DNA of 60,471 nucleotides, taken from positions 1 to 60,471 of the IMG/VR virus record IMGVR_UViG_3300050821_001577. One strand, 5' to 3'. The notes under the pieces are model-generated. The model had not been told where the DNA came from. It did not search any database and worked only from the letters and a program-made list of their open reading frames with translations. Below, piece after piece: positions 2,782-28,822 of this stretch. The DNA is from a virus. The position numbers and the translations under genes are program-made. Each line of letters opens with the position of its first letter. Position 1 is the stretch's first letter.

Positions 2782-3165
2782 TCATACGGCCGGTTCTTTT
2801 TCTTTCTCGGGCTCGGGCTTCGCCGCACCGCCGCTCAACAGACCTGTAGCCGTTTCCGGCTTGTCCTGAAATACAGCGGACGGAGGAATCGGCGTTACCG
2901 GGCCTCTCGGGTCAGATGCTGGGACTTCCTTGACCGGTACCGGCTCAAGAGCTGGCTTGCCGGTTTCGATCGCCGCAAGGATCTCATGAGCCTTGGAGGT
3001 AGCCGAAGAAAATACTGCGTCGTATTTCGTCTGCACCGAGGGCGGCGCGCTATCACCGGACGAAGCATCCTTCATTTCGATCTCAAGGCATTTCATCAGA
3101 ACGGTAAACGCCTCAATCTGGGTTGGGGCCTTGGCGACTTCCGCGATTAGCTGGTCAAGGGTCAT
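2782..3165 (-). CDS. Hypothetical virion-block protein with proline-rich tail
   Basis: A 127-residue protein of unknown function. The first ~65 residues are helical and acidic (MTLDQLIAEVAKAPTQIEAF); from about residue 70 the chain becomes rich in Pro, Ala, Glu and Val and probably disordered, ending in a KPEPEKEKEPAV tail. AAAGGAG precedes the ATG at good spacing. Its start overlaps the stop of the 42-residue gene upstream (ATGA), and a terminator follows. It could be a small accessory head protein. Confidence 0.75.
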   Translation of the reverse strand: MTLDQLIAEVAKAPTQIEAFTVLMKCLEIEMKDASSGDSAPPSVQTKYDAVFSSATSKAHEILAAIETGKPALEPVPVKEVPASDPRGPVTPIPPSAVFQDKPETATGLLSGGAAKPEPEKEKEPAV

Positions 3166-3290
3166 TTTTGCTCCTTTGGGTCAACACCCGCGACATATTG
3201 ATGGTGGCGCCGGTTCTGCCGGCGGTAACGAACAGTCGGTAACGCCGCCGACGTACCGGCAGCCTGCAGGGGCATTTCCAACACGGTCAT
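3162..3290 (-). CDS. Small basic protein (42 aa)
   Basis: An open frame of 42 codons whose ATG overlaps the stop of the gene above (ATGA at 3287-3290) and whose TGA overlaps the start of the gene below (ATGA at 3162-3165). This double coupling is the main evidence, since it fills an otherwise empty 120-bp gap exactly. The product is basic and rich in Arg, His and Gln towards the C-terminus (VRYRRQNRRHHQYVAGVD). No clear Shine-Dalgarno; translation would rely on coupling. Function unknown. Confidence 0.5.
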   Translation of the reverse strand: MTVLEMPLQAAGTSAALPTVRYRRQNRRHHQYVAGVDPKEQK

Positions 3291-4742: not shown

Positions 4743-5491
4743 TCTGCTGCCATCTGCTTCACGGCATCAACCAACGTCAGAGGCGACGCGTTCTGCTCTC
4801 TTTCCGTGAGATATTGGATGTAGTTACCCTTGTACGAATATTGCCCGACATGCTCGATGTCATGCTCAAGCGAGGCCCAGATATCGCCTCCGCAGGTTCG
4901 CCAACGCTGGCAGAACGCAAGATCCTCGGACAACTTGCCGGCCTGATTATCGTCCGGGTTATCGAACGTATCGAACAGCCTCAGAATGCGTCCGCCGAGC
5001 ATGTCCTTTGCCGCGTGATACGTCATCCGGGTATCGATAACCTCAGGCATCTGCTTAAGCATGATATCAACGGCATCGCGGCGGATCAGAAAACAGCCCA
5101 TGCCTAGCCCAGCTACCGTCATGAAGTTGCCGTTGCGCTTCACGTCTTTCTCAGCAAGCCCCGATGCTGCCCATTGAATCGGCAACGTCTTCTTGGGATA
5201 GATCGCGCCAACCATCGGCTCATTGAGCAAGATCATGTCAAGCACGACCTGAGGCCCAAAGCTCATATCCGAATCAATGAACAGCATATGCGTCGCGTCG
5301 GGACATCCGTCATACCATCCCGTCAGCATGATATTCCGCGCCTCGCTCACATCTGGATAGCTGAATGCCGCGATACCGCCTCGGATGTTCCGTGACGAAA
5401 ACATCTGAATCAAGGCATGGGTGGTGTTGAGCGTCGGGACCGAGACAACATTGCCATACGCGGGCAGGCAAACGAGGATGTTGGGCGTCAT
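4739..5491 (-). CDS. Glycosyltransferase family 2-like protein
   Basis: A 250-residue protein with a clear GT-A organisation: LVCLPAYGNVVSVPT at the N-terminus, ARNIMLTGW helix, the metal/nucleotide site LFIDSDMSF (DSD at 73-75), a VGAIYPKK segment, and a late acidic SEDLAFCQRWRTCGGDIW motif that matches the catalytic-base region of GT2 enzymes. It probably glycosylates a surface or virion target. It overlaps its neighbours by ATGA; the HNH gene at 5488 was inserted directly upstream. Confidence 0.85.
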   Translation of the reverse strand: MTPNILVCLPAYGNVVSVPTLNTTHALIQMFSSRNIRGGIAAFSYPDVSEARNIMLTGWYDGCPDATHMLFIDSDMSFGPQVVLDMILLNEPMVGAIYPKKTLPIQWAASGLAEKDVKRNGNFMTVAGLGMGCFLIRRDAVDIMLKQMPEVIDTRMTYHAAKDMLGGRILRLFDTFDNPDDNQAGKLSEDLAFCQRWRTCGGDIWASLEHDIEHVGQYSYKGNYIQYLTEREQNASPLTLVDAVKQMAAE

Positions 5492-6315
5492 TCTAACGAA
5501 ATTCCTTGTTGAGCGGCTTTCTTGGCTGCAATAGTCGCAAACCTTTTAGCCTGAATGGCTGCGTTAACTTCTGGAGTTCTAGGCTTCTTTTTCATGGCAG
5601 AAGCTCGCATGGCTCCCATCCCCTCCTGAGAAAAAGTTCGCCCATTTGGCCATTTTTTCTTTCCTCTAGCCGCTTCTCCATTTTTTCTGATCTTTTCTAA
5701 CCATTCCGGGGTCAGAACTCTGCCATTTGGCCATTTTTTCTTGCCCTTATGGGCTAGGCTCATATTACGCCGACCTTCTTCTGAGATTGGTTTTCTGTTT
5801 GGATACTTCATTCCAGTCTTAGCCTTCACCATTTTAGCAATGGTCTCTGGCGAAAGCGTTCGGCCTTTCATTCTTCTAGAAATTCTTTCACCAAATTCCT
5901 TGGGAAATTTTCGACCTTTATTGATTGCTGATATTTTTGCCGAAAAACCTGGAGGCATTTTCTTGCCTCGTTTAGCCGCCGCTATATTTTCTCTCGCTTG
6001 AAGCGAAAGAACCCTTTTCTTCGAAACCTTGGCCGCTTCATCAATAACGAGCGCCATATCATCAGGCTTCTTTTTAAGCCTATAGCTGATCAGAAGCGCA
6101 GAATACCAATCTTTATTCTCGCGATGAACTGCGTAATGATCCGCTACAGAAAGCGCAATCCAATTGGATGGATCGTTATTGTTAGGATTGAAATCGGCAT
6201 GATGAATATCGAATGTCACACCATATTCATCGATCGGTATTGGTCCATTCAAGGCGATCCACGCTTGACGTATCCTCTTTTGAGACATCAAGCGGACCGT
6301 TCTTCCTTTTCTCAT
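5488..6315 (-). CDS. HNH endonuclease with NUMOD3 repeats
   Basis: A 275-residue homing-type endonuclease. The HNH core is near the N-terminus (IHHADFNPNNNDPSNWIALSVADHYAVH, about 37-64). The C-terminal two thirds is a chain of lysine-rich NUMOD3-like DNA-binding repeats (GRTLSPETIAKMVKAK, KPISEEGRRNMSLAHKGKKKWPNG, then two more ending in KKWPNGR). The ATG follows directly on the TAA of the upstream gene, and the end overlaps the glycosyltransferase start (ATGA), so the insertion is seamless. Confidence 0.9.
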   Translation of the reverse strand: MRKGRTVRLMSQKRIRQAWIALNGPIPIDEYGVTFDIHHADFNPNNNDPSNWIALSVADHYAVHRENKDWYSALLISYRLKKKPDDMALVIDEAAKVSKKRVLSLQARENIAAAKRGKKMPPGFSAKISAINKGRKFPKEFGERISRRMKGRTLSPETIAKMVKAKTGMKYPNRKPISEEGRRNMSLAHKGKKKWPNGRVLTPEWLEKIRKNGEAARGKKKWPNGRTFSQEGMGAMRASAMKKKPRTPEVNAAIQAKRFATIAAKKAAQQGISLE

Positions 6316-17067: not shown

Positions 17068-19781
17068 GCCGATCTCCTGCTGAAACCTGGATAGAGTGCC
17101 CGCTTAGGTGCCCCACGATGCCTCACCGCGTCCAACTCCTGTGCCCGGCGCTCCTCATCGCTGCGGATCAAACCGGTGTCGCGGAGATGCTTGATCGCCT
17201 GCGTCATCGAATCAAACAAATCATCATGAGTTCCGTAGGGGAAAAGCGCGCACTCATCAATGACCTTCCCAGCATAGTCGAATTCTTCTGGATCCGGCGC
17301 ATAAATCATCTCTTGAGAGAACGAAGGCACAATAGCCATGCCGCGGGCCATCTTATCTCCCTTGGGCTCAACAAGTTGGATCGTCCATCCTTGCCGTCCA
17401 TGGGCATTCCGCAGAGATTGAGCGGCAGATATGCCAGAAGCCTTTGACTCTATTAACAATTTGTCTGCTTTGAACCGATTGCAGCTATCCGCAACCCATT
17501 CGATCAGTCCCCAGAAAGGGCGCGCTCGGATCTTGTATGTCGATTCATGCTCGTTTGGCAGAATATCAATCTTGGGACCGGAAAACTCAAGCCGCTTTGA
17601 CCATGCATGGATCAGCATTGCCCGATTATAGCCATGCTCGTTCTGGAACACACCCCAGATCGTCAATGCAGATGGATCGTTCTTTTCTTCCTCAGTATAA
17701 GCGCCGTCTAGACTGGCCACGATATATTCAAACGGTGGGAACTTGCGACCAGTCATATAAATCTCGGCTGGCATCCACCACTCACGCTTAATCAGGCCAC
17801 CGCCACGAGCCTCTGGCGTCTGCTGGAGTTGGCTGGCAGTCGCATAGGGACCAAGTTCAATCTTGAGGCTTTGAACCGATCGTTCCGAGAAACGGTCAAT
17901 CCAAGCTAACTCACCCTCGCAATCATCTTGGTTCGCTCGCCACCGCGGATCAACCCAGCCAATCGAAGTTGTGTACGGCTCGCCATTGTCGTCTGCCTGC
18001 CACACATACTCCATTGGAATGCAGAGATGACAATATGGTAGCTGAAGCCGAAGGATCTCGCCGGAAACGTCTGCCTCACTGACACGCTGAGATATGACAA
18101 TCTTTGCATCGGTCTCCATGCTGTTCAGACGTGACGACAGAGATTCCCGAAACCAGCGGTTGGTTTCGTCCATGACCGCTTTGGATTCGCTCTCTTTCAC
18201 GTTATTTAAATCGTCGCAGTTGGAGCAAATTATGTTTGCACCATCTCCGCACAACATGTTATGGTTCCCCTCCACCGTGATGCAAAACGTTTCAGAGGGA
18301 ATTTCATGCAACAAATCGACAGAAACGACGCGAACGAAAGATGGCTTCCAGTAGTCGGGTTTGAAGGGATTTACGAGGTTTCCGACCTTGGCCGAGTTCG
18401 CAGCATGCCGCGCGTCGTGGTGCGGCGCAGACACTTGGCTATCCACAACGACAGAATCAGCCATGAGAAATGCGAACATGAGATGGTTAACTCTGGCAAG
18501 ATAATGACTGGCACGATTTGCGAAGGATATCCGCGCGTCTCGCTTCGCCGCGATGGCAAGACTTTCTATCGGATGTGCCACGTTTTGGTGGCCGCAGCAT
18601 TCTTGGGGCCGTGCCCCGAAGGCGAGGAGGTTCGCCATAAAGATGGTAATCGAGGCGATGCCAGTCTCAGCAATATCGAATATGGAACGCGGGCTCAGAA
18701 CATTGCCGATTGCAAAAGGCACGGAACATTTCGGAATGGCGCGTCGCATCTTACCGAGGACATGGTTCGCCAGATTGCGGCTCGCCATTACGAGACCGCT
18801 GCGGATCTTGGCAAAGAATTTGGGGTAAGCGGGGGCACCATCGCCGGCATCAGAAATCGGCGGATCTGGAAGCATTTGAACTTGGACTTGCTCCCGACCT
18901 ATCGCAGGAGCGGCGATCTCCACCCGGCTAGGCGCGGCAATAAGACGATGCCCGATTCGGATATCTGACGCAAACCTGTAGCCTTCATCGCCTAGAATGA
19001 GATGGTCCAAGGTGCAGGTCACGCTTGAACCATTCTCTAGTCCGACCCTAACCAAGTGGCGCCCCGGATTCGTATGCCAGCCAATGACCGGCTTGAGTTC
19101 TAATTTTCCGGTAGATCGATTGTATGACCAAACCGGCAAATCCATCCTGTTCTTGACAAACTTTCCGATGGCGATTGGCCCGATGGCGGTATCAATAAGT
19201 TGATCTGACGGAAAGCAGATGGCTCGGTTGCCGCGCTTACCAGTGACCGAGCCTGTAACCGAGCTCGCCAGCTTCCAGCCATGTTTCCGGTTGGAAACCA
19301 TCGTCATGCCGTTCTGGCGGATCGCGACATGGGGATACATGGCCTGATAATCGGTCGACGACACCAGATCGCCAAACCGCTGATTGTCGCGCTCGGTATT
19401 GCTGGAACTATACGAGAACGTCACGTACCGGAGATGGGCGAGGTCCATCGCCCCCCATTCCCATGCTGGCCAGAATACGTTGGTCAGCAGCGACTTCATC
19501 GCTCCAGGGAATACATTGATGAGGAGATTGGTTATTTCCCCGTAGGTGACCGCCTCAAGGTGCTCACAGATGGCCTCCAGAACCCACCCATCAACGAACG
19601 GCGTGCCAGGCTCCAGCACATGCCAGAAATACCGCACGAAGCTCAGCAAGCCACCCTGCCACACCCCGTCCTCATCTCGGTAGCCTCTGGTCTGATGCTC
19701 AGCCTTGGCTATCCTGCGGCGCTTCTCGGCTAATGCTGCGTTGAAGCGCTCAAGATCGGCACGGGGAATAGGCTTGTTCAT
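17064..19781 (-). CDS. terL: Terminase large subunit containing an intein
   Basis: A 905-residue precursor; after removal of a 333-residue intein the terminase is 572 residues, a normal size. N-extein: Walker A VFPGAMKSL (90-98, Lys97), the TGSVTGKRGNRAI stretch. The intein runs Cys189-Asn521 and Cys522 is the +1 residue, so splicing rebuilds the Walker B region RAI-CDDLNN (522-527). C-extein: nuclease motifs SLDGAY, LLIESKASG and the late DDLFDSMTQ. The enzyme translocates DNA through the portal and cuts it. The start ATG overlaps the small HTH gene (ATGA). The central part of the intein is antisense to an HNH gene at 18306. Confidence 0.93.
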   Translation of the reverse strand: MNKPIPRADLERFNAALAEKRRRIAKAEHQTRGYRDEDGVWQGGLLSFVRYFWHVLEPGTPFVDGWVLEAICEHLEAVTYGEITNLLINVFPGAMKSLLTNVFWPAWEWGAMDLAHLRYVTFSYSSSNTERDNQRFGDLVSSTDYQAMYPHVAIRQNGMTMVSNRKHGWKLASSVTGSVTGKRGNRAICFPSDQLIDTAIGPIAIGKFVKNRMDLPVWSYNRSTGKLELKPVIGWHTNPGRHLVRVGLENGSSVTCTLDHLILGDEGYRFASDIRIGHRLIAAPSRVEIAAPAIGREQVQVQMLPDPPISDAGDGAPAYPKFFAKIRSGLVMASRNLANHVLGKMRRAIPKCSVPFAIGNVLSPRSIFDIAETGIASITIFMANLLAFGARPQECCGHQNVAHPIESLAIAAKRDARISFANRASHYLARVNHLMFAFLMADSVVVDSQVSAPHHDARHAANSAKVGNLVNPFKPDYWKPSFVRVVSVDLLHEIPSETFCITVEGNHNMLCGDGANIICSNCDDLNNVKESESKAVMDETNRWFRESLSSRLNSMETDAKIVISQRVSEADVSGEILRLQLPYCHLCIPMEYVWQADDNGEPYTTSIGWVDPRWRANQDDCEGELAWIDRFSERSVQSLKIELGPYATASQLQQTPEARGGGLIKREWWMPAEIYMTGRKFPPFEYIVASLDGAYTEEEKNDPSALTIWGVFQNEHGYNRAMLIHAWSKRLEFSGPKIDILPNEHESTYKIRARPFWGLIEWVADSCNRFKADKLLIESKASGISAAQSLRNAHGRQGWTIQLVEPKGDKMARGMAIVPSFSQEMIYAPDPEEFDYAGKVIDECALFPYGTHDDLFDSMTQAIKHLRDTGLIRSDEERRAQELDAVRHRGAPKRALYPGFSRRSA
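18219..19217 (-). mobile_element. Intein coding segment within terL
   Basis: 999 bp coding residues 189-521 of the terL product. Block A: CFPSDQLIDTAIGPI beginning with the nucleophilic Cys189 (TGC at 19215-19217). Block B: GSSVTCTLDHLIL with the TxxH signature (Thr257, His260). Block F: VVSVDLLHEIPSETFCITVEG. Block G: ANIICSN ending in Asn521 (AAC at 18219-18221), then Cys522 of the extein. The residue before the terminal Asn is Ser instead of the usual His. No in-frame endonuclease motif (LAGLIDADG or HNH) is present; the middle ~200 residues are the reverse of the HNH gene on the other strand. Confidence 0.9.
18306..18968 (+). CDS. HNH endonuclease (NUMOD4) nested antisense inside the terL intein
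   Basis: A 220-residue protein read on the plus strand, wholly inside the intein. Start ATG at 18306, 6 nt after AGAGGG. Domains: NUMOD4 at about 12-33 (ERWLPVVGFEGIYEVSDLGR), HNH core (YRMCHVLVAAAFLG, then EEVRHKDGNRGDASLSNIEYGTRAQN, about 90-140), and a C-terminal helix-turn-helix (ETAADLGKEFGVSGGTIAGI). All expected domains are complete, so it is very probably functional, not a shadow. Codons lie exactly opposite terL codons, which forces the absence of TTA, CTA and TCA. It probably mobilises the intein or itself. Confidence 0.88.
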   Translation: MQQIDRNDANERWLPVVGFEGIYEVSDLGRVRSMPRVVVRRRHLAIHNDRISHEKCEHEMVNSGKIMTGTICEGYPRVSLRRDGKTFYRMCHVLVAAAFLGPCPEGEEVRHKDGNRGDASLSNIEYGTRAQNIADCKRHGTFRNGASHLTEDMVRQIAARHYETAADLGKEFGVSGGTIAGIRNRRIWKHLNLDLLPTYRRSGDLHPARRGNKTMPDSDI

Positions 19782-20264: not shown

Positions 20265-20665
20265 GCGCGCTCCTTCGCATATTTTGCACTCAAACGAGCA
20301 AACTCAGCTCGGTCATGGGCTTCCCTGCGGTCGCGATCAACAGCCGCTTGAGCAGCACGCACCTTGCGTTCTTTTTCCTTCTCCTCAGCGTCAACTTTAT
20401 GCCAAATGGCTTCGATCTGGCTTTTTCTCATCAAGAGAATATCAATCGGAAACTTGAATGACCGCAGGGTGGTGTACGACCCCCCATAGTAATCCGATTC
20501 CGTGCATCTCCAAGAGATCACAGCTTGGTCGTCCTCAAAATACAGAGGCATGACCAATTCGTCATAGCCTTCCGAATAGTAGGGAGACCGGCTTGAGACC
20601 AAAGCCGCGCTGGACACCAAATCAATGTAGGCCACAATGATCTTCTCTGCTTCGTCGCGTGTCAT
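20261..20665 (-). CDS. Hypothetical protein with charged C-terminal helix
   Basis: A 134-residue protein. The N-terminal ~80 residues are a mixed alpha/beta domain (PLYFEDDQAVISWRC...YTTLRSFKFPIDILLM); the C-terminal 50 are a highly charged helix rich in Glu, Lys and Arg. Both ends are ATGA-coupled. Not recognised. Confidence 0.7.
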   Translation of the reverse strand: MTRDEAEKIIVAYIDLVSSAALVSSRSPYYSEGYDELVMPLYFEDDQAVISWRCTESDYYGGSYTTLRSFKFPIDILLMRKSQIEAIWHKVDAEEKEKERKVRAAQAAVDRDRREAHDRAEFARLSAKYAKERA

Positions 20666-20835
20666 TTCCCCTCCCTATTCGCTTCCGCCGCCTTGAGTAG
20701 CCATTCTTCGGCCCAAGCTCGGTCACCGTTGTAGTATTCGTCGATTGCCAGCATGACGGCATCCAATGCCTCGTTCAGAGCAACTTGGAACTCCGTTGTC
20801 TCAACTGGTTCGTGATTGCAGGCATGATTCCTCAT
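20662..20835 (-). CDS. Hypothetical acidic protein (57 aa)
   Basis: Coupled at both ends by ATGA. Acidic helical product (NHEPVETTEFQVALNEALDA ... AEEWLLKAAEANREGK). An AAGGA lies about 11 nt upstream. Function unknown. Confidence 0.65.
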   Translation of the reverse strand: MRNHACNHEPVETTEFQVALNEALDAVMLAIDEYYNGDRAWAEEWLLKAAEANREGK

Positions 20836-20942
20836 TTGCGTTGTTCCTTCCGCTGCGCCAGATCACCGATGAAGGCTGTCACCAACAGGCACCCAGAATA
20901 TCCGAAAAATAGGCCGCATATGAACACGGTTAAACCGCTCAT
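20832..20942 (-). CDS. Single-span membrane microprotein (36 aa)
   Basis: MSGLTVFICGLFFGYSGCLL continues VTAFIGDLAQRKEQRK: one transmembrane helix followed by a basic cytoplasmic tail. GAGGA lies 8 nt before the ATG, and both ends overlap neighbours by ATGA. Function unknown. Confidence 0.65.
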   Translation of the reverse strand: MSGLTVFICGLFFGYSGCLLVTAFIGDLAQRKEQRK

Positions 20943-21103
20943 TTTCGGGTCCTCTTGAGAACCATGGCTAATCGGAGCGGAAACAAAACCGAAATCAGAT
21001 AGACTTGAAGATATCCGACTATGTTGCCATGAACAGCCATTTCAATGCCTAGAGCGAAGGCCAGAAAATACAGCGTCAGCATAATCGCGTCATGGGCTCT
21101 CAT
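20939..21103 (-). CDS. Two-span small membrane protein (54 aa)
   Basis: Two hydrophobic segments (IMLTLYFLAFALGIEMAV and IVGYLQVYLISVLFPLRLAMVL) and a basic end (KRTRK). The TGA overlaps the next ATG. Its ATG directly follows the TAA of the Acb2-like gene. Possibly a small holin-like or membrane stress protein; no family recognised. Confidence 0.65.
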   Translation of the reverse strand: MRAHDAIMLTLYFLAFALGIEMAVHGNIVGYLQVYLISVLFPLRLAMVLKRTRK

Positions 21104-21277
21104 TTACATCCGCTCCACAGCCTTGCGCATCCACATGGCAGCTTCCTCAATCTTGGTAACAGCCAGCGACCATTCGCGGCTGGAACCCAATGATTTGATG
21201 ATCTCAGTCATTTGGGCCTCCAACTCATCGATTCGCAGGTTCATTTCGGTGCGGTCTGCTGGAGTTATTCCGTTCAC
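21104..21277 (-). CDS. Acb2/Tad1 hairpin-like protein (putative anti-CBASS sponge)
   Basis: A 57-residue protein with a GTG start (AAGGAG 8 nt upstream, GTGA overlap). It is an alpha-hairpin: helix 1 DRTEMNLRIDELEAQMTEII, then SSREWSLAVTKIEEAAMWMRKAV (residues 32-54). The SREx(2)LAxTKxEEAxMW signature is that of the Acb2 family, whose hexamers sequester cyclic di- and trinucleotide signals of CBASS defence. It is shorter than characterised Acb2, covering mainly the hairpin core. Binding activity is inferred. Confidence 0.65.
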   Translation of the reverse strand: MNGITPADRTEMNLRIDELEAQMTEIIKSLGSSREWSLAVTKIEEAAMWMRKAVERM

Positions 21278-21726
21278 GTCTTGCTCTCCTTCTGCCGGCG
21301 GTACCACTGGGCCTTGGATATGCCATCAGCTTCCCATGGCTTATCCCGGACCTCGCCTTTCTTCGGGCGACCACGTTTTAGGCTCAACTTCCCGCCCTTT
21401 ATGGCTTCAGCCATCTGATCAATAAGACCCGGAGGATGAGCCATACTTGTGAGTGATACTCCATCCGGGTCTTCTGGCGGACCGGCCTTGATACCGACTG
21501 GCTCTAACGGGATTTTCACCCGCGCCCTGAGCCCCTGGGTAGGACCCCGCTCTGTCTGAGCTATAGAGCCGACCTCAGGCTCGGAACGACGCAATCCCAC
21601 TCGCGCCGCAGCTTTGCCATCTTGGCCCTCGCGTCCTTCCGCGATGCCGCCAGAATTCTTGCGCCTGCGGGCATAGGCCGCCTCGCGCATCTCACGTGAT
21701 TGCTGCTCTCGTGGACCTCCCTTCAT
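21274..21726 (-). CDS. Basic DNA-binding-like protein with AT-hook and HTH-like tail
   Basis: Up to 150 residues; the start is uncertain (no strong Shine-Dalgarno), and a shorter form from the ATG at 21444 (MAHPPGLIDQMAEAIKGGKL, 56 aa) is possible. The C-terminus has an AT-hook-like KRGRPKKGE and a GISKAQWYRRQKE segment resembling a recognition helix. Basic and Gly/Arg-rich upstream. It lies directly next to three repeats and terS, so a packaging or DNA-binding role is plausible. Confidence 0.6.
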   Translation of the reverse strand: MKGGPREQQSREMREAAYARRRKNSGGIAEGREGQDGKAAARVGLRRSEPEVGSIAQTERGPTQGLRARVKIPLEPVGIKAGPPEDPDGVSLTSMAHPPGLIDQMAEAIKGGKLSLKRGRPKKGEVRDKPWEADGISKAQWYRRQKESKT

Positions 21727-24864: not shown

Positions 24865-25731
24865 TTATTTCGGGTGAAATGTTCTGGCAATATGGCGTGA
24901 CAGCGTTTCAGGTATTTTTGCAATCATCGCGCTGGCCATCTTGCGGGCTGGGGATTTTGACGAGGTCATGCGGCTGATCTTGCCGTCGCCAGCGAACCAT
25001 TCACGGCCACTGCCGCGCTGCTTGATGCCTTCAACCATTTGACCGTAATCGCCAAACCACGATCCACCATCGGATTTCATTCCCTCAACCGAGGCCGACT
25101 GAAAGCTTCCGCCACTCCCATTGAAGCGAAATCCTGGAACCTTCATGCCTTCGCGCAATCGCCGATCAGCCTCGCCATTGAATGCCAGCGGCTTGTAGTC
25201 GGGATTGCCGTGATCTGACCAACTAAATCCACCGACTTTTGCATGCGACGTAATCGGCATGAGTGCTGGCACATCGCCCCATAACGCAAAGCTACCAAAC
25301 ATCCACCGAGCTCTCCCAACCCAAGGCTGGGCTCCTCTGACGTTTTCAACAACCATCGGAATGTGGTGACCGGCAGATTCCGAAGCCTCGCGCTGAATGC
25401 GGAAACAGGCGTTGAATAGCGCCAGTTCCTTCTCAAGCCGAACAGAATCGGCACGAACTTGTTTTGCGAGTGCTTTTGCTTTTGACCAGGGCATCGCGGT
25501 ATATGAGAAAAATTGGCACGGGGGCGACATGACTAGGCAATTAGCCGTTTTGAATTGAGATCCGTGGAGGGTAAGCGCGTCTTGGATAACAAGCTGTCCC
25601 GGATAACTATGCGGCCCATAAACATGCCGCTCAATGTCAAACCCGATTATCTCCCATCCTTCGGCCAAAAATCCCTCGGCCCAGCCTCCAACCCCGCAAA
25701 AAACGTCAATGCACAACGGTTTTTGCTTCAT
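24865..25731 (-). CDS. DNA cytosine-5 methyltransferase
   Basis: A 288-residue C5-MTase: motif I IDVFCGVGGWAEGF (8-21), motif IV SPPCQFFS with catalytic Cys72, motif VI ENV (129-131), and a C-terminal region (AMIAKIPETLSRHIA) resembling motif X. The spacing is compact for this family and the target-recognition region is short, as in other phage orphan enzymes. It probably modifies phage DNA to evade host restriction; no cognate endonuclease is visible. ATGA-coupled to the gene at 25728. Confidence 0.9.
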   Translation of the reverse strand: MKQKPLCIDVFCGVGGWAEGFLAEGWEIIGFDIERHVYGPHSYPGQLVIQDALTLHGSQFKTANCLVMSPPCQFFSYTAMPWSKAKALAKQVRADSVRLEKELALFNACFRIQREASESAGHHIPMVVENVRGAQPWVGRARWMFGSFALWGDVPALMPITSHAKVGGFSWSDHGNPDYKPLAFNGEADRRLREGMKVPGFRFNGSGGSFQSASVEGMKSDGGSWFGDYGQMVEGIKQRGSGREWFAGDGKISRMTSSKSPARKMASAMIAKIPETLSRHIARTFHPK

Positions 25732-28160: not shown

Positions 28161-28748
28161 TCATTCCGCCTCCCACGAAATGCGGTGTATGCGCGAAGCA
28201 CCCGTATGTGATTTGTCCCAAACGAACCAAGCGAAAGCCATGCCGCTATTCGAATGGTTGCCAGTCCAGCCCCTTCGATGCATCTGGGGCAAGCGCTTTC
28301 GGAAAACATAAACGTCGGCGAGCCATCCGGTATCCAAGATTGGTGATCGGCGCTCACTTTCGAGAAATGCAAGGCGCAGCAATAATGCTACTCTGGGGCA
28401 GAGATCGAGTGCCTTGGTGGCAAACTCCGTGGCATTCTTGAACGGCGGATTCGTCAGGATCATTTGCACCCCGATCGGTAGTTGAGTTTCCATTAGGAAA
28501 TCCCATCCCGATTGGTCCTGATCTGGTGAACTATAATCCACTAAATCGGTTGCATAGACCTGCCGCCCCGACGCCCTGAGAAGCCTCACAATGGCTCCTG
28601 GTCCGCAAGCTGGCTCCCAGATTACCTCGGGTAGGTTTTCCACGCCCATGAGCGCCCTAAGAGCTTCTGGAGGCGTTTCATAGCAATCGTCTGCACGCTC
28701 ATTCACCGGATGAGCAGCATTCCCCATTCCTGAAACTAAACCAGCCAT
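28161..28748 (-). CDS. DNA N6-adenine methyltransferase
   Basis: A 195-residue protein; start at MAGLVSGMGNAAHPVNERAD with GGGGA 6 nt upstream. Motifs: DDCYETPPEALRAL (20-33), SAM-binding EPACGPGAIV (45-54), YATDLVDY and catalytic NPPF (100-103). This order is that of Dam-like phage adenine methyltransferases. The C-terminus ends in the normal ...SWEAE form, so the gene is complete. Probably protects phage DNA or marks it for regulation. Confidence 0.9.
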   Translation of the reverse strand: MAGLVSGMGNAAHPVNERADDCYETPPEALRALMGVENLPEVIWEPACGPGAIVRLLRASGRQVYATDLVDYSSPDQDQSGWDFLMETQLPIGVQMILTNPPFKNATEFATKALDLCPRVALLLRLAFLESERRSPILDTGWLADVYVFRKRLPQMHRRGWTGNHSNSGMAFAWFVWDKSHTGASRIHRISWEAE

Positions 28749-28822
28749 CAGATTCCCCACCGCCAAACCGTTATCTCAAGCCGCGGGTGCGCGCTGAGAT
28801 TTTGCCAAGCATTTTGTTCAAT

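Follow-up and report, generated by a model that had tools for sequence, protein, structure and literature searches.

A 57-residue protein of the Acb2/Tad1 hairpin family encoded between the terminase genes of an uncultured bacterial virus

The window, i.e., the whole stretch of 60,471 nucleotides analysed here, is DNA of an uncultured bacterial virus taken from an IMG/VR record. On its minus strand, the gene for the terminase small subunit (phrog_51) is followed by the genes for a basic protein of 150 residues and for the hairpin protein considered here, by ORFs of 54, 36, and 57 residues, by further small ORFs, and by the gene for the terminase large subunit, TerL (Table 1). The hairpin ORF extends from a GTG codon at 21277 to a TAA stop at 21106–21104, and translates to VNGITPADRTEMNLRIDELEAQMTEIIKSLGSSREWSLAVTKIEEAAMWMRKAVERM*, a product of 57 residues. 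Reading of 21104–21277 on the plus strand was ruled out since it contains a stop. The SREx(2)LAxTKxEEAxMW signature reported in an earlier note on this DNA, which gave no strand, is matched exactly on the minus strand by the segment SREWSLAVTKIEEAAMW.

The longest possible ORF would start at GTG 21307 and yield 67 residues, but this start lies inside the upstream gene and was rejected. We place the start at GTG 21277 because it is preceded at a distance of 8 nt by AAGGAG, because it overlaps the stop of the upstream gene as GTGA, and because the sister phage L100, which is the nearest one in IMG/VR, shares GCCGGCAGAAGGAGAGCAAGAC at the corresponding junction, with ATGA coming next. Both the GTG start and the GTGA coupling described in the earlier note are thus borne out. 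The 16 codons between the previous stop and GTG 21277 (WHIQGPVVPPAEGEQD) overlap the upstream gene; since a single Trp, which is not at the aligned position, is their only aromatic codon and both Tyr and Phe are absent, an upstream extension that restores the conserved tyrosine discussed below was likewise rejected.

Table 1. Features of the hairpin gene neighbourhood and other features noted in the window.
Feature	Position	Strand	Remarks
Upstream coupled gene, 150 aa, basic	21274..21726	-	Overlaps hairpin GTG by GTGA
Ribosome-binding site AAGGAG	21291-21286	-	8 nt before GTG 21277, within upstream gene; identical in L100
Hairpin protein gene, 57 aa	21277..21104	-	ORF; PF24729; phrog_15810 and phrog_1454; AlphaFold2
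54-aa hydrophobic ORF, probably membrane	20939..21103	-	Starts directly past hairpin gene stop; absent from L100
36-aa ORF, probable single-pass membrane	20832..20942	-	Coupled by ATGA
57-aa ORF, downstream border of variable stretch	20662..20835	-	70% identical in L100
TerL intein-coding stretch (residues 189-521)	18219-19217	-	Weak PF14890 match
Homing endonuclease ORF, 235 aa	18261-18968	+	NUMOD4 and HNH_3; antisense within intein-coding stretch
Second homing endonuclease	5488-6315	-	HNH_3 partial, NUMOD3
Probable DNA methyltransferase	28161-28766	-	phrog_799, E 1.5e-53; possible anti-restriction
Probable DNA methyltransferase	24865-25731	-	Weak C5-methylase match; possible anti-restriction

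The upstream gene had been described as DNA-binding-like, and its basic product has the look of a DNA-binding protein, with a KRGRPKK motif and a WYRR tail, but no family match was found in Pfam or PHROGs. A stretch of 70 residues is 74% identical in L100, and the individual pieces of the L100 terminase show 83 to 98% identity. The small membrane proteins noted earlier downstream of the hairpin gene are present as two strongly hydrophobic ORFs, with maximum Kyte-Doolittle values of 2.06 and 2.03. In L100, the relative of the 150-residue protein runs directly, by ATGA, into a different small membrane ORF of 38 residues, to which the 36-residue ORF of the window is weakly similar (local score 30 vs a shuffled mean of 17.6; 0.8% of the shuffles reach it). 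No relatives of the 54-residue ORF were found among the loci compared. Because L100 has another ORF at the same coupled start and neither of the two genes, the hairpin gene and the 54-residue membrane ORF look like an accessory pair, either gained here or lost in L100. The anti-defence cluster suggested previously therefore holds as far as an accessory pair absent from L100 is concerned, but not with respect to the neighbours, none of which has a known anti-defence domain.

The TerL gene itself carries an intein, and the stretch that encodes it also encodes a homing endonuclease in antisense. The same layout of intein and antisense endonuclease occurs in the loci L098, L099, and L134, and the terminase frame is stop-free through the intein. 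In these three, the endonuclease reaches 57, 45, and 42% identity, and the intein frame, which is the less conserved of the two, 36, 35, and 28%. A literature search by title or abstract found no paper on an intein with antisense homing endonuclease in a terminase, and this arrangement is more unusual than the hairpin gene. TerL of L100 (2193–4781, plus strand of that locus) is without this intein, but has another at a different site (HDDL/CFAAGT...VHN/CDAMTQ). The window also holds a second homing endonuclease and two probable DNA methyltransferases (Table 1).

On sequence grounds, the 57-residue product can be assigned firmly to the Acb2/Tad1 hairpin family, as proposed in the earlier note. 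It matches Pfam PF24729 (Acb2_Tad1_hairpin) over profile positions 15–58 of 58 with 38.8 bits (E 1.1e-9), where the curated cut-off is 27 bits, and matches phrog_15810 and phrog_1454 in PHROGs; a weak match to the HSBP1 coiled coil is also seen in Pfam. Relatives were gathered by scans of viral contigs, which gave 13 and later 80 loci, and by a scan of bacterial genomes, which gave 24. PF24729 is matched by every member of one alignment of relatives (49/49), and among relatives the hairpin is also found at the end of longer proteins. When a profile built from 47 relatives was run against the PDB, it retrieved Acb2 homolog 43 (E 2.4e-7), Tad1 (E 7e-6 to 4e-5), and, weakly, T4 Vs.4. A direct search of the phage collection for a named relative gave only two weak matches, and none of the named defence models searched against the protein matched. 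The hairpin protein is an ordinary member, unusually short, of a known family with its own Pfam entry.

The AlphaFold2 monomer consists of two antiparallel helices, residues 6–29 and 34–56, with a mean pLDDT of 95.7 and no strands. CbTad1 ranks first in a Foldseek search of the PDB with 40% identity over 43 columns, but at an E-value of about 1, and in BFVD, Acb2/Tad1 hairpin proteins take most of the first ten places and are the best named matches. A structure prediction compared with Acb2 hexamers had been put forward as a check, and at the level of the monomer the confident hairpin agrees with the Acb2 fold. The comparison does not discriminate from unrelated hairpins: VIA-align gives Z 6.9 for T4 Vs.4 (7uq2) and 6.4 for PaP2 Acb2 (8h2j) vs up to 7.5 for unrelated hairpin chains. 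The two-helix hairpin is too common a fold, and we therefore rejected identification from the fold alone. A control fold of a relative, L018, has a 13-residue tail with the conserved tyrosine ahead of helix 1; in the window protein this tail is no longer than five residues.

Across the 47 aligned relatives, R34, L38, A39, T41, K42, E44, E45, and W49 are invariant; L38 to E45 lie within the pattern used for the DNA scan and are thus invariant in part by construction, and R34 and W49 are outside it. The core common to Acb2 and Tad1 (R34, T41, K42, E44, E45, and W49) is intact. When the protein is aligned to Acb2 from PaP2 and T4 together with close relatives, R34 corresponds to PaP2 Arg67, which we take to line the trinucleotide site, and T4 Acb2 is without that arginine. 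The conserved tyrosine (T4 Tyr8, PaP2 Tyr11) aligns to Met1, i.e., the start codon, the position of T4 Phe82 is occupied by Glu55, and no aromatic residue occurs within the first 35 residues of the window protein. Where 33 or more residues precede the conserved arginine, 55 of 61 relatives have an N-terminal aromatic residue, an approximate count as their start codons were picked by a simple rule. R56, seven residues past the tryptophan, is kept, and Arg is the commonest residue there (53%).

As in Acb2 from T4 (Vs.4, PDB code 7uq2) and Pseudomonas phage PaP2 (PDB code 8h2j), the window protein is a small single-domain phage protein with the common hairpin core and a helix of the TK..EEA..MW type. 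The Acb2 proteins are about 90 residues long and form compact homohexamers, whereas the 57-residue window protein has a shorter hairpin and lacks both the N-terminal Tyr8/Tyr11 segment and Phe82, so that the designation as Acb2-like given in the earlier note is firm for the hairpin family but not for Acb2 in the strict sense. The C-terminal hairpin of Tad1 (CbTad1, PDB codes 7uav, 8smd, and 8kbf) is alike (SSRENACALTHVEEALMWM vs SSREWSLAVTKIEEAAMWM), but the window protein is without the N-terminal antiparallel β-sheet half of Tad1 and the remaining gcADPR/dinucleotide pocket. Acb2 homolog 43 (PDB code 9ptq, a 76-residue chain) is likewise a short hairpin member of solved structure and, unlike the window protein, keeps an N-terminal extension (FDTHLVNQ...). 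Size, hairpin, and motif are shared with the "Acb2/Tad1 hairpin domain-containing" proteins of many phages (PF24729; phrog_15810, phrog_1454), most of which carry an N-terminal aromatic motif of the RFxYHxP or RHxYRxL type that is absent here.

The hairpin family was found in none of 27 terminase-related records, anywhere in the record, a search in which several records are fragments and the controls were silent, though the window gene was detected. Among 80 terminase loci, only L168 has a hairpin ORF, downstream of the terminase. In view of these counts, a conserved packaging role suggested by the position between the terminase genes was rejected. Elsewhere, Gordonia phage Hanem (positions 3001–3216 of locus L202) has a hairpin-family gene, annotated as hypothetical, that overlaps the end of the portal gene by one base and adjoins genes for an RNA ligase and a VIP2-like ADP-ribosyltransferase.

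Our preferred explanation is that this accessory gene encodes a minimal form of the phage Acb2/Tad1 sponges, one that consists of the hairpin alone and probably acts as a sponge for some cyclic nucleotide. That it sponges mainly trinucleotides is a more tentative suggestion. In both Acb2 and Tad1, trinucleotides occupy a channel at the trimer interface (review PMC12043709), and because both bind them there, we infer that the hairpin core common to the two is a natural candidate for the trinucleotide site. Trinucleotides would be the likelier ligand since the Acb2/Tad1 core residues, including the counterpart of PaP2 Arg67, are kept and the tyrosine of the dinucleotide pocket is lost. Several copies of the hairpin would assemble, as they do in Acb2 and Tad1, and the assembly would trap cyclic oligonucleotides that serve as alarm signals, with trinucleotides probably favoured over dinucleotides. 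A CBASS-type effector, or one of a cA3-using type III CRISPR system, might thereby stay off during infection. Sponges of the Acb2 kind can also trigger Panoptes defence (PMC12657218, PMC12657230), and we speculate that such triggering is a possible reason for loss of dinucleotide binding.

A full functional equivalent of Acb2, in which other residues complete the pocket and both cyclic dinucleotides and trinucleotides are sequestered, would agree with the PF24729 match and the retained R56. It is unlikely with the start codon on the conserved tyrosine and a glutamate in place of Phe82, since Phe82 of T4 Acb2 makes stacking contacts with bound cyclic dinucleotides (PMC12657218), and the Y8A variant of T4 Acb2 is disrupted in dinucleotide binding and inactive (PMC12657218, PMC12657230). 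The missing tyrosine segment is itself what might be seen in a decayed or repurposed hairpin, i.e., an assembly domain that has given up signal binding for another role, for example in the phage's own regulation or together with the membrane neighbour; the single occurrence in the phage group and the presence of the hairpin at the end of longer proteins point the same way. Decay should have eroded the core, however, and here the Acb2/Tad1 core residues are all intact and the ribosome-binding site is strong, which makes this reading rather improbable too. A short ORF of 57 residues with two helices has a low-information shape, and together with the weak HSBP1 match this could raise the suspicion that the profile is matched through composition. 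Such a spurious resemblance is very hard to reconcile with an E-value of 1.1e-9 above the curated cut-off, with the invariant motif positions, and with a coupled start that has its counterpart at the same point in L100.

Annotations of new phage genomes now list Acb2-like genes as CBASS antagonists (PMC13348362, PMC11953737), and if the hairpin protein does not bind, a PF24729 match alone would be poor ground for such an annotation. If the protein does bind, its 57 residues would make it a very small sponge for immune signals, in which the trinucleotide site is separated in nature from the dinucleotide site, and it would mark a slot beside the packaging genes at which accessory genes are exchanged in this phage group. 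As a broader and rather doubtful proposal, hairpin-only proteins may be stripped-down, trinucleotide-only Acb2/Tad1 sponges moved between phages in small coupled cassettes, and might represent a common core to which dinucleotide binding, by the N-terminal tyrosine, and gcADPR binding, by the N-terminal sheet, have been added or lost.
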